NCBI GenBank assembly: GCA_025963725.1
Contig: JAOQAE010000002.1
Span: 1 to 64,000 of the forward strand
Reading direction: 5' to 3'
Length of the DNA: 64,000 nt
DNA from: Bacteroidota bacterium
GTDB taxonomy: Bacteria > Bacteroidota > Bacteroidia > 2-12-FULL-35-15
The notes under the pieces: generated by a model
Database searches by the model: none
Seen by the model: only the letters and a program-made list of their open reading frames with translations
What the model was told of the DNA's origin: nothing
Made by a program: the position numbers and the translations under genes
Shown: piece by piece, positions 5,640-7,451 of the stretch
Position numbering within the stretch: the first letter of the stretch is position 1
Layout: each line of letters opens with the position of its first letter

Positions 5640-6449
5640 TCATAGTGAAAATGGCTTTTGACTGTCAAAAGGTAGATTGGCCTGGCCAATGTTATAATAA
5701 TTAGGAGTTTGTTCCGGCGGCATTAAATTCATTATTTGCTTGTAGAATGAAAGGTAATCACCACTGAACTTACCCCCGTTCCAGATTCTTTTTAGCGCAG
5801 CAGTAAATTGGCCATTAAATGTTCCATCATAGGAATATTGATTATCCTGACATCCTGCAATTAATTTCACACTTGCCTGAATATTTTCTGAATCAACATC
5901 TTTTACGCTTTTCAGGATGCTGTTGTAAAATTCTTTATTATTGAAATATGTTGTTGATGCAATTTCATCCGGCATACACTTAGGGGTGAATTCAGTTCTT
6001 GCCCTCTCGGAACTCCTCGCTAATTTTGCAATTGTTCCGCTATGACAACTATCAGAAATAATTAAAATGCGAACTCCTTTTTTGAAAGTTGACCATAGAT
6101 TAGATAATTCGTCATCTACCAGCTCACCATCAAATAAACACCATGTTTCATCCATGCTATCGGCTTCATCTCCATTCATATCGGGTAGCTGTCCGCCGTG
6201 CCCTGAGTAGGAGATAACAAACAAATCATTTGCTGCCAAAGTAGCGGCGGCAGTTTTAATTTTTGAAATAACTGCAGATCTCGTTGCTTCATTCCTGATA
6301 AGCGTCGTGGGTTGAAGTCCCTGGGATTTGGTTATTAAATACATGTCGTTTGCATCGTATTCAGCGGCGGTAAGCTTCCCGTCCCAGCCTGAATAATGAT
6401 TAGGGTCTACATAGTTGAGACCAATGTGAAGTGAAATTCCTTTTGTCAT
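5640..6449 (-). CDS. Caspase-like (metacaspase/orthocaspase, peptidase C14) protein
   Basis: The 269-residue protein is a bare caspase-type p20 domain. The catalytic dyad is visible: His84 in YSGHGG and Cys135 in the DSCHSG loop, each after a hydrophobic strand (LFVIS and RILIISDS). The N-terminal ISLHIGLNYVDP strand is also typical of the family. Residues D90, D94 and D97-D100 around the His-Cys linker could bind calcium, as in type I metacaspases. No signal peptide, membrane segment or fused effector domain is present, so this is a cytoplasmic, stand-alone protease. Family members cleave after Arg or Lys; roles include stress response, programmed death and phage defence, none of which the sequence proves. 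Base composition appears more AT-rich than the housekeeping genes further right. It has no operon partner. Confidence 0.9.
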   Translation of the reverse strand: MTKGISLHIGLNYVDPNHYSGWDGKLTAAEYDANDMYLITKSQGLQPTTLIRNEATRSAVISKIKTAAATLAANDLFVISYSGHGGQLPDMNGDEADSMDETWCLFDGELVDDELSNLWSTFKKGVRILIISDSCHSGTIAKLARSSERARTEFTPKCMPDEIASTTYFNNKEFYNSILKSVKDVDSENIQASVKLIAGCQDNQYSYDGTFNGQFTAALKRIWNGGKFSGDYLSFYKQIMNLMPPEQTPNYYNIGQANLPFDSQKPFSL

Positions 6450-6566
6450 GGTGATTTGTTTGTTTTATGGGTTAAATACAAAATACGTTTCAAAAGTATT
6501 TTGTAAAAAGATAGAAGTCAACCCGTAAAAGCACCCGATTACTTACCGGGGTTTTTTATGACAATT

Positions 6567-6631
6567 CCATAAAATAAAAAAAGCCACAACGACTGTTGGG
6601 GCTTTGTAGCGAGATCGGGTTTGAACCCGAG
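6567..6631. repeat. Left direct repeat flanking GIY-YIG gene
   Basis: This copy of a roughly 65-bp direct repeat has its partner at 6983-7048. It includes a slightly decayed copy of the tRNA terminator hairpin (arms AGCCACAAC/GTTGGGGCT, 6582-6603) and the tRNA acceptor/T-arm sequence. The two copies bracket the GIY-YIG gene. Confidence 0.85.
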
Positions 6632-6680
6632 TCCGCCCGGGCGGATATGAATCTTGCGCTTTTCCATTGAGCAAGCTCGC
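6606..6680 (-). pseudogene. tRNA-like pseudogene with palindromic insert
   Basis: Read on the minus strand, this has tRNA-like acceptor ends (AGCGAG.. / ..CTCGCT), a degenerate D-arm, the anticodon-loop sequence TTCATA and an intact T-arm (TCGGGTTCAAACCCGA). The 3' anticodon stem and variable region are replaced by the 14-bp perfect palindrome TCCGCCCGGGCGGA (6632-6645). The anticodon stem cannot form normally, so I call it a pseudogene derived from tRNA-Met. Confidence 0.7.
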
Positions 6681-6695
6681 TCATATAAACAATGA

Positions 6696-6986
6696 TTAAT
6701 AGTCTGTAACAACGTCTTGATGTGCAGATATAAATCCTTCACCTTTCACAAAATGAGCGTTGATCCATTCTCTGCCTTTTCCTGTTTTGAAGTGCTTCTC
6801 CCTGTTTAATGCTTCAGCTTTCGTTTCAAAAAATTCAACATGAATAACCTTCCATGGTCTGAACCGGGTGGTAAAGCCTTTTTTGCCATTGTTATGCCAG
6901 TAGATGCGTTGAATAAGATTGGCTGAGTAACCGATATAGAATCGATCGGCGGAAAAGGAATAAAGGATGTAAGTGACGTGATCCAT
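6696..6986 (-). CDS. Small GIY-YIG nuclease family protein
   Basis: This 96-residue protein consists of one GIY-YIG domain. The first motif reads YILYS and the second FYIGYS, in place of GIY and YIG, and the conserved Arg follows in LIQRIYWHN. The catalytic Glu is probably in the FFETKAEALNREKHFK segment. Stand-alone members of this size (YhbQ/UPF0213 type) are nuclease-like proteins of uncertain role, common in Bacteroidota. The start ATG (6984-6986) lies at the edge of the tRNA-terminator repeat, and the stop falls just before the tRNA-like pseudogene. The gene is therefore framed on both sides by duplicated tRNA 3' sequence. That arrangement suggests it arrived or duplicated together with the tRNA unit. 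No separate promoter box was found. Confidence 0.88.
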   Translation of the reverse strand: MDHVTYILYSFSADRFYIGYSANLIQRIYWHNNGKKGFTTRFRPWKVIHVEFFETKAEALNREKHFKTGKGREWINAHFVKGEGFISAHQDVVTDY

Positions 6987-7048
6987 AAAATAAAAAAAGC
7001 CCCAACGGCTGTTGGGGCTTTGTAGCGAGATCGGGAGTTGAACCCGAG
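6983..7048. repeat. Right direct repeat flanking GIY-YIG gene
   Basis: Partner of 6567-6631. This copy is the functional one: it contains the intact terminator and the 3' part of the real tRNA gene. The first bases of the repeat form the start codon of the GIY-YIG gene. Confidence 0.85.
6988..7020 (-). terminator. Rho-independent terminator of tRNA-Met
   Basis: On the minus strand the hairpin AGCCCCAAC-AGCC-GTTGGGGCT is followed by a run of seven T, a few bases after the tRNA 3' end. This is a textbook intrinsic terminator. Confidence 0.9.
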
Positions 7049-7096
7049 ACCTCAGGGTTATGAATCCTGCGCTCTAACCATCTGAGCTACCTCGCC
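7023..7096 (-). tRNA. tRNA-Met (anticodon CAU)
   Basis: The 74-nt minus-strand sequence folds as a full cloverleaf. The acceptor is GGCGAGG/TCTCGCT with G-U pairs at both ends, and the D-arm is GCTC...GAGC. The anticodon stem CAGGA/CCCTG has one A-C mismatch next to the loop TTCATAA (anticodon CAT). The T-arm is TCGGG/CCCGA with TTCAACT, and the discriminator is A. CCA is not encoded. A CAT anticodon could also be tRNA-Ile2 with lysidine; the sequence alone does not separate it from elongator Met. It is not an initiator, because the acceptor begins with a G-U pair and the anticodon stem lacks three G-C pairs. Confidence 0.92.
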
Positions 7097-7288
7097 ATAT
7101 ATACTAACTAAAAAAATGAACTAATGTCGTTGGATCCGAGTCCGCCTAGGCGGATATGAATCCTGCGCTCTAACCATCTGAGCTACCTCGCCATATATAA
7201 CTAACTAAAAAATGAACTAATGTCGTTAGCCCCGAGTCCGCCTGGGCGGATATGAATCCTGCGCTCTAACCATCTGAGCTACCTCGCC
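7059..7288 (-). repeat. Three-copy, 96-bp-period array of tRNA-Met 5' halves
   Basis: The 38-bp segment covering acceptor 5' strand, D-arm and anticodon loop of tRNA-Met occurs at 7059-7096 (the real tRNA), 7155-7192 and 7251-7288, at an exact 96-bp step, with conserved AT-rich spacers. The two upstream copies lack the T-arm. Instead they carry the palindromes TCCGCCTAGGCGGA (7141-7154) and TCCGCCTGGGCGGA (7237-7250) directly after the anticodon loop. Confidence 0.92.
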
Positions 7289-7329
7289 ATATTACCACTC
7301 GAGTTGCCTCTTATTGGTTTTTGAGGGCG

Positions 7330-7337
7330 CAAATATA
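7330..7337 (-). promoter_or_regulatory. -7 box of the tRNA array
   Basis: The minus-strand box TATATTTG fits the TAnnTTTG consensus and lies about 40 bp before the outermost tRNA-half copy. No such box occurs between the copies, so one transcript probably runs through both halves into the real tRNA. No good -33 element was seen. Confidence 0.55.
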
Positions 7338-7451
7338 GTATTTATCTTTCCATTTGTATAGTTGCTTTAAATATTTTTAACGTTTGAGGGGTATTGACTA
7401 ATTAGTTTTTTTTTATATATTGCGTAAATTTTTGTTCAAATTTGAGCTGAA

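Follow-up and report, generated by a model that had tools for sequence, protein, structure and literature searches.

We describe a compact unit in a 64,000-nucleotide stretch of a Bacteroidota genome (the window, G000:C7:1-64000, part of a 4.79-Mb genome in 7 contigs), in which a minimal GIY-YIG nuclease gene lies between an intact transfer RNA gene (tRNA-Met) and a broken, hairpin-plugged tRNA copy. The reading that we favor, to which we give a probability of roughly 57%, is that this is a chromosomal, SegB-like selfish unit anchored at a tRNA gene and made of the intact tRNA, a terminator, the nuclease gene and, as the right end, the hairpin-plugged partial tRNA. The argument draws on the anatomy of the locus, purifying selection on the gene, the fixed position of the hairpin, empty and filled alleles in relatives, same-strand linkage to tRNA genes across the phylum, tracking of tRNA isotype by the proteins and tandem arrays. 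On the minus strand, a promoter-like site is followed by two truncated tRNA-Met copies, the intact tRNA-Met (CAT), a terminator, the GIY-YIG gene, a degenerate tRNA-Met, a copy of the terminator and the bases ATGGA, as follows.

7332..7360, minus strand: promoter-like site preceding the whole array (9/12 matches; the scan gave 3 sites vs 2.8 in shuffles)
7226..7288, minus strand: truncated tRNA-Met copy 1, with a perfect 5' half, the palindrome at 7237-7250, a decayed T-arm start and then spacer
7130..7192, minus strand: truncated tRNA-Met copy 2, with a perfect 5' half, the palindrome at 7141-7154, a decayed T-arm start and then spacer
7022..7096, minus strand: intact tRNA-Met (CAT), Rfam tRNA 63.5 bits, identical to the tRNA of the empty allele in G007
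6996..7021, minus strand: intrinsic terminator in the interval between tRNA and GIY-YIG gene, from the terminator scan
6696..6986, minus strand: GIY-YIG nuclease gene P0001, 96 aa, an open reading frame (ORF) with a PF01541 match
6607..6690, minus strand: degenerate tRNA-Met copy, with a decayed 5' half, the palindrome at 6632-6645 and an intact T-arm and acceptor 3' strand
6580..6605, minus strand: second copy of the terminator hairpin, from the repeat comparison (D4, I1); the terminator scan did not report it
6566..6570, minus strand: ATGGA, at the end of the direct repeat, the five opening bases that remain of a second, lost GIY-YIG gene; G032 and G026 have a decayed gene at the same position

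The first-pass annotation of this DNA had described a direct repeat, holding the tRNA terminator with the T-arm and acceptor, around a 96-residue GIY-YIG gene, and both parts of that description stand. The repeat runs for 54 bp at 96% identity (6566-6619 vs 6982-7035), resumes after a one-base shift into the T-arm (6621-6634 vs 7038-7051), contains the terminator, the acceptor 3' strand and the T-arm, and frames the ORF 6986..6696 (-). Its outer bases, minus-strand ATGGA, make up the start codon of the ORF in one copy, as had been noticed, and a five-base remnant in the other. The left tRNA, said to be degenerate and to bear a palindrome, scores 24.4 bits against the whole Rfam tRNA model (6607-6681) vs a cut-off of 29, and in its predicted fold the palindrome forms a separate arm; Rfam families other than tRNA in 6400-7450 all fell under their cut-offs and were taken as chance. 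The stretch TATATTTGCGCCCTCAAAA upstream of the array is also found ahead of the empty-allele tRNA in relatives. These observations support the notion of a tRNA-plus-GIY-YIG unit with duplicated tRNA parts. Beyond the earlier description, we find the two upstream tRNA copies, an overlap of the GIY-YIG frame with tRNA sequence in relatives and an over-representation of the palindrome.

By its sequence, P0001 is a member of the GIY-YIG nuclease superfamily; the PF01541 match (E 9.2e-16, 58.4 bits vs a curated cut-off of 22.6) covers residues 3-70 of 96. Residues Y6, S10, Y17, G19, R27, H31, E63 and K67 are invariant in 20 aligned proteins, and we take the conserved Tyr, Tyr-x-Gly, Arg and Glu to be the GIY-YIG active-site residues. 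The gene is under purifying selection, with a nonsynonymous divergence (pN) of 0.14-0.25 vs a synonymous divergence (pS) of 0.54-0.88 between G000, G032, G033, G026 and L051, and it is a real gene that looks active. The predicted model of P0001 has a mean predicted local distance difference test score of 88.5, with low confidence for residues 92-96. Among solved structures, Foldseek ranks the UPF0213 protein BH0048 first (E 4.5e-5) and Slx1 at ranks 2-4; the domain of UvrC, a protein that also contains a GIY-YIG domain, comes only at rank 44. The named relatives of the gene are Bacteroidetes metagenome-assembled genomes (MAGs), from which the genome is placed in the Bacteroidota. A tblastn search of phages and plasmids gave 8 phage and 5 plasmid records (Listeria, Staphylococcus, Azospirillum, Enterococcus, Neisseria), all below 60% identity and none covering 80% of the protein, and P0001 had no match in NCBIfam or PHROGs at 1e-3. 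On these results we did not read the unit as phage-borne.

All three broken tRNAs of the window carry the palindrome TCCGCC-NN-GGCGGA at the same place, just 3' of the anticodon. A genome-wide search for TCCGCC-N(0-16)-GGCGGA returned a spacer of exactly 2 in 19 of 23 hits, against 7 hits in all for the backwards control. Among 38 loci examined (29 from the Met-clade profile search described below and 9 earlier; 7 of the 38 at other tRNAs), a hairpin follows TCATA directly in 20, which represent 8 numbered families and one unplaced MAG. Most of these hairpins begin with TCC and end with GGA (25/29), and 20/29 are TCCGCC..GGCGGA with variable loops. Since the hairpin is conserved after TCATA across families, it is part of the Met units and not peculiar to this genome. 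The nuclease gene itself runs into this sequence in relatives: in G032 (L049), G033 (L050) and L051 the frame continues into GGATTCATATCCGCC, which is the tRNA-Met anticodon arm plus palindrome, to give a protein that reads ...GFISA, and the palindrome contains the stop codon of L050 and L051. The window protein retains the GFISA motif, followed by a divergent tail. In relatives of the window unit GGATTCATA is common to the 3' end of the GIY-YIG gene and the tRNA. Behind the tRNA 3' half, G032 and G026 have the decayed remains of a second GIY-YIG gene, which in the window is reduced to ATGGA. At L002, L028, L029, L030, L037, L075 and L084 the GIY-YIG stop falls within tRNA-derived D-arm or hairpin sequence. 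The upstream copies that end in the T-loop at GTTC (8 of the 11 with a recognisable T-arm start, out of 19 upstream copies in all) are too few to build on.

A comparison of relatives for an empty tRNA site had been proposed in the first-pass annotation, and such sites exist. The annotation had named a lack of any empty allele among relatives as a refutation of its reading, so that this outcome speaks for the reading. The START_2 gene (P0002) beside the array, which served as anchor, has a match in 35 of the 36 genus genomes searched, and 30 loci were fetched. Fourteen of them are empty, with the same tRNA-Met beside the START gene, both flanks visible, no partial copy and no GIY-YIG gene by tblastn with P0001 within the fetched flank. 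Two further loci are clean upstream and reach a contig end, three have the tRNA in the other orientation, and six have no tRNA-Met in the fetched stretch. Against these 14, four alleles are filled: those of G000; of G018, where the gene is truncated close to the contig end; of G026; and of G032, in which the contig with the START gene and the one with the GIY-YIG gene share 104 identical bases at their overlapping ends. The G033 allele is probably filled; we grade it so because its START-linked place shows only plugged copies, two of them up to the contig end, with the GIY-YIG gene on another contig. On the START-gene tree at least 2 changes (gain or loss) are needed over 18 scored genomes, and at least 3 over 19 when G033 is included. 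In G033 itself, the unit at L050:3000-3300 (G033:C27) consists of a terminator, the GIY-YIG gene, the palindrome and the 3' half of a tRNA-Met; the 6.3-kb locus around it gave no tRNA. G016 (L179/L234), one of the three loci with reversed tRNA, has an intact tRNA-Met whose T-arm differs; upstream of it lies a tRNA-Met copy into which three separate hairpins are inserted, two of them in the D-arm region and the third behind the anticodon. L179 showed no GIY-YIG gene.

The same alleles bear on a different explanation, in which the partial copies are attachment-site remnants of tyrosine-recombinase islands that integrate at the tRNA with a cross-over near the anticodon arm and carry the GIY-YIG gene as cargo. 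Islands that target tRNA genes through tyrosine recombinases do leave partial tRNA copies, so that the use of tRNA genes as sites and the presence of such copies are shared features. Relatives do use this tRNA-Met as an island site: G025 (L235), an allele without GIY-YIG gene, has a phage-integrase gene immediately behind it, and in G002 (L233) the native tRNA breaks off where the anticodon arm ends, with a second, different tRNA-Met following. Moreover, the first 44 nt are identical in 17 of the 19 START-linked tRNA-Met genes, and a small number of distinct 3' halves occurs among them, with differences even within the close pair G025 and G007 (L236), whose START stretches are 98.6% identical. 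Against this, the present units measure a few hundred bp and stand in tandem, with GIY-YIG copies about 315-600 bp apart in tight arrays, unlike islands, and no integrase was found among the three window neighbours tested by Pfam, other GIY-YIG loci not having been searched for integrases. We consider an island origin very improbable. We also dropped the idea that the 3'-half versions record past GIY-YIG invasions, as the G025/G007 pair has an integrase behind one tRNA and the aligned similarity of its two genomes ends at the tRNA 3' end.

Units of the same kind recur at other tRNAs and in other families, where the first-pass annotation had advised looking for the pair. GIY-YIG domains are present in all 118 of 118 Bacteroidota genomes searched, with up to 25 per genome. 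Survey A comprises 109 places, made up of 30 initial loci and 79 taken down a longer, itself truncated, E-value-ordered list to about 1.1e-15, with close neighbours merged, G000:C7:690034 left out (it is in set B) and a 101-base filler region (L163) dropped; set B comprises the 36 loci found with P0001, duplicates of one place left out. A same-strand tRNA lies within 300 bp at 29/109 places of survey A (25 upstream, 4 downstream) and at 27/36 loci of set B (19 upstream, 8 downstream; 9 without), and no opposite-strand tRNA lies within that distance at any of the 109 or the 36. The density of tRNA genes in the survey is 0.50 per kb within 300 bp and 0.013 per kb beyond 800 bp. Of the 56 tRNA-linked loci, 46 contain one or more partial copies of the tRNA beside them (reversed-half control, 0 hits), and a hairpin stem of at least 6 pairs lies in or adjoins 53/76 partial copies vs 143/1074 random windows from the same loci. 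By eye, and not without exceptions, it is mostly the anticodon arm that is replaced in copies of Met, Val, Ala, Arg-TCT, Gln, Gly, Lys and Pro; most Leu, Ser and Asp copies have lost the T-arm instead, and one Arg-CCT copy the D-arm together with the T-arm.

The proteins track the isotype of the tRNA beside them. Of the three named MAG loci without family assignment (L051, L053 and L054), the two that bear a tRNA, L051 and L054, were removed before counting. When each protein is paired with its nearest neighbour from another family in the protein tree, the amino acid of the tRNA is shared in 21/54 loci (5.0 expected; 0/5000 shuffles). Reduced to a single row for each family and anticodon, the set shares the amino acid in 16/45 vs 4.0 (0/5000; 1/5000 when shuffled within families) and the exact anticodon in 8/45 vs 1.9 (16/5000; within families 46/5000). 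For a test on new loci, a Met-clade profile was run against 395 genomes of the phylum, and 29 loci besides the window were fetched; one of these, L238, had been part of the profile itself. Of the new loci, the 20 with the best scores (E <=4.9e-29) comprise 16 with an intact tRNA-Met, 3 with Met-like hairpin-bearing copies only (L242, L246 and, least clearly, L257) and 1 where nothing is visible; another isotype occurs at 0 of these 20. The 8 weaker new loci have Asn at 4 and Met, Phe, Ser and Ala at one each, the Asn locus L260 being a place already seen as L155.

Tandem arrays are a further property of these loci. A second same-strand copy of the locus's own GIY-YIG gene, whole or truncated, is present in 22/145 loci; whole second copies are mostly 94-100% identical and mostly about 345-600 bp apart. 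Larger arrays hold 8 copies (G108:C34, one with a stop codon), 5 (G225:C1), 5 (G349:C1) and 3 (G418:C10), and in L252, L258 and L242 hairpin-plugged tRNA parts lie between the GIY-YIG copies. Flank scores cover 142 of the 145 loci; in 86/142 the 500-bp stretches on the two sides of the GIY-YIG gene match at a score >=50, including 46/79 survey loci without tRNA, compared with 0/143 across loci and 7/262 in the same loci off the gene. These flank matches are partly tandem GIY-YIG copies, and many others resemble, by eye, intergenic hairpin repeats. At L089, L096, L131 and L157, for example, which have no tRNA, a stand-alone GIY-YIG gene is framed on both sides by long hairpin-like direct repeats.

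Flank repeats of this kind would also be expected from hairpin-ended transposition with a logic like that of repetitive extragenic palindromic (REP) sequences and their associated tyrosine transposases (RAYTs), in which a Slx1-related nuclease acts on hairpins at both unit ends, tRNA-derived repeats are one flavour of end, and these proteins would also spread the intergenic hairpin repeats that are dispersed in Bacteroidota genomes. Besides the flank counts, with or without tRNA, many of the non-tRNA flank repeats are of the GTCATTGCGAGG..GAAGCAATC or GTCATTCCCGCG..GCGGGAATC type (by eye, uncounted), the tRNA palindrome recurs in the G000 genome as the loop of two other dispersed repeats (GATTGCTTC..TCGCAATGAC, 8 perfect and 2 imperfect of 59 hits; a second repeat, 4/8 hits), the G033 unit has a plugged tRNA 3' half and no intact tRNA, and the nearest folds of the predicted model are UPF0213 and Slx1. 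The terms GIY-YIG and "repetitive extragenic palindromic" never stood together in the papers listed. A nuclease gene between palindromic repeats, some of them dispersed in the genome, is also the layout of REP/RAYT systems; RAYTs, however, are HUH tyrosine transposases, whereas the enzyme here is GIY-YIG, the only Pfam domain of P0001, and many of the flanks are tRNA-derived. In this genome TCCGCC-NN-GGCGGA is a dispersed palindrome, but the tRNA-Arg unit has a hairpin that is not (2 hits vs 4 for the control), part of the flank repeats is explained by tandem GIY-YIG copies, no excision footprint or insertion-site pattern is shown, and isotype tracking suggests a target sequence rather than hairpins alone. 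We regard transposition of this type as unlikely. On the tRNA-Arg result we also gave up the view that every plugging hairpin is a genome-wide repeat. At C3:75577, C4:539219 and C6:580901, for example, TCCGCC-NN-GGCGGA replaces the loops of two unrelated dispersed repeats, like a swappable hairpin-tip module.

The arrays might instead be passive: an ordinary nuclease gene behind a tRNA, expressed by read-through, would be copied by unequal crossing-over or slippage and then decay, with the nuclease uninvolved. Terminators and tRNA ends may act as recombinogenic repeats, the decayed second GIY-YIG copies resemble relics of simple duplication, and the upstream copies are alike within G000 and within G018, as in concerted evolution (by eye). 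Passive copying does not predict same-strand linkage to many tRNAs, isotype tracking in the new loci, the fixed place of the hairpin in broken tRNA-Met copies from 8 families or direct repeats around GIY-YIG genes without tRNA, and other tRNAs in the loci have partial copies in only 5/21 cases, of which three fall in L057 and L159, two loci with GIY-YIG arrays. We judge that duplication of this sort is improbable as the source of the units.

Under the favored reading of a SegB-like selfish unit, the nuclease would make DNA breaks within or next to tRNA genes of its isotype. Recombinational repair through GGATTCATA, common to the tRNA and the nuclease gene's 3' end, would then copy the segment, so that tandem units are added or a unit is installed at an empty tRNA allele. 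One intact tRNA would be retained, so that the host survives, and in the extra tRNA copies a hairpin in place of an arm (for Met, just after the anticodon) may remove targets or mark the ends of the unit.

Several observations weigh against this reading. We infer the cleavage and its site, the route of repair and the hairpin's protective role. No sequence-recognition domain was found in P0001, whose Pfam match covers residues 3-70 and which has no further Pfam domain at 0.001. The intact tRNA of the window is identical to the empty-allele tRNA of G007; if that tRNA were the sole target, the unit would cut itself, and for this reason self-cutting would have to be tolerated, or cutting would have to depend on structure or context. 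No tRNA lies within 300 bp at 80/109 survey places, 10/56 tRNA-linked loci have no partial copy, 10 more have a copy with no 6-pair hairpin, and the partial copies of other tRNAs (5/21) count here as well. Isotype tracking is weak in survey A alone, with the amino acid shared in 6/29 vs 2.0 (135/5000) and the anticodon in 1/29, equal to shuffled. Among the relatives, the check for GIY-YIG genes in empty alleles extended over the fetched flank only, the G033 gene has no intact tRNA beside its plugged 3' half, and G016 has a hairpin-plugged tRNA-Met copy without a neighbouring GIY-YIG gene. Finally, horizontal movement is a hypothesis at most: GIY-YIG identity drops with START identity (START 98% in G018, 91% in G032, 80% in G033 and 72% in G026) and pS is near saturation in the GIY-YIG comparisons.

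In the available part of its description, T6 SegB cuts within tRNA genes and drives tandem amplification of a tRNA-plus-segB segment, likely via microhomology that the tRNA 5' region has with the 3' region of segB, and phage SegB is linked to many tRNA isotypes with none favored overall (PMC13096335). Compared with that part, the present unit has in common a free-standing GIY-YIG gene beside tRNA genes of many isotypes, a tandem tRNA-nuclease segment, truncated nuclease copies and a junction of tRNA 5' region and nuclease 3' end with common microhomology. It differs in that it is chromosomal, encodes a minimal 96-aa protein without PHROGs match at 1e-3, has broken tRNA copies bearing a conserved hairpin at a fixed place and belongs to subfamilies that track isotype; cleavage, demonstrated for SegB according to the same part, is here inferred. 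SegB is longer than 96 aa, and P0001 (96 aa, match 3-70) does not have the separate C-terminal DNA-binding part of SegB/I-TevI-type homing endonucleases. The occupied and unoccupied target alleles typical of such endonucleases are present (4 filled, 1 probably filled, 14 empty). The homing-like mechanism that the first-pass annotation considered possible therefore divides in two. This is not a classical, target-interrupting homing insertion, because an intact tRNA identical to the empty-allele tRNA adjoins the gene, and the protein has no second domain; as a copying route, SegB-like segmental amplification is a better fit than plain homing.

The available part of a survey of the superfamily describes NUMOD fusions as auxiliary DNA-binding parts of GIY-YIG homing endonucleases and links of stand-alone UPF0213/Slx1-like proteins to methyltransferase genes; tRNA is mentioned there only for a fused TrmH-type methyltransferase domain and in references (PMC1564403). 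P0001 resembles the UPF0213 and prokaryotic Slx1-like proteins in its minimal domain without auxiliary domains, with BH0048 and Slx1 as its nearest solved structures, and differs from them in that this part of the survey gives no tRNA-gene linkage, tandem units or hairpin-plugged tRNA copies. We file the system as a minimal Slx1/UPF0213-type GIY-YIG nuclease in a SegB-like tRNA unit, on account of the SegB-like layout, the missing separate DNA-binding part and the fold nearest to UPF0213/Slx1. No description of bacterial chromosomal GIY-YIG/tRNA units was found among the papers listed from the open-licence literature (titles, abstract starts).

A wider, tentative reading, which we find possible yet doubtful, joins these strands across the phylum: the stand-alone GIY-YIG proteins of Bacteroidota would be the sole proteins of tiny mobile units, with one isotype and arm per subfamily, and Slx1-like, structure-guided cutting would both amplify the units and spread dispersed repeats, the unit ends being either hairpin-plugged tRNA pieces or other hairpin repeats. 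We know of no mobiliser of dispersed intergenic hairpin repeats. If the selfish-unit reading is true, small and usually passed-over GIY-YIG genes are selfish units on essential tRNA genes across a phylum, and SegB-like tRNA amplification reaches from phages into bacterial chromosomes. The place of the hairpin, the isotype tracking and the arrays provide handles on target choice by a minimal structure-selective nuclease, as well as on what moves dispersed palindromic repeats. In practice, the arrays are expected to break assemblies (several lie at contig ends), and plugged copies can confuse tRNA annotation.

Pfam searches of three neighbouring window proteins gave one without match, the START_2 protein P0002 and a caspase-domain (Peptidase_C14) protein, whose gene at 5640-6449 (-) adjoins the unit.
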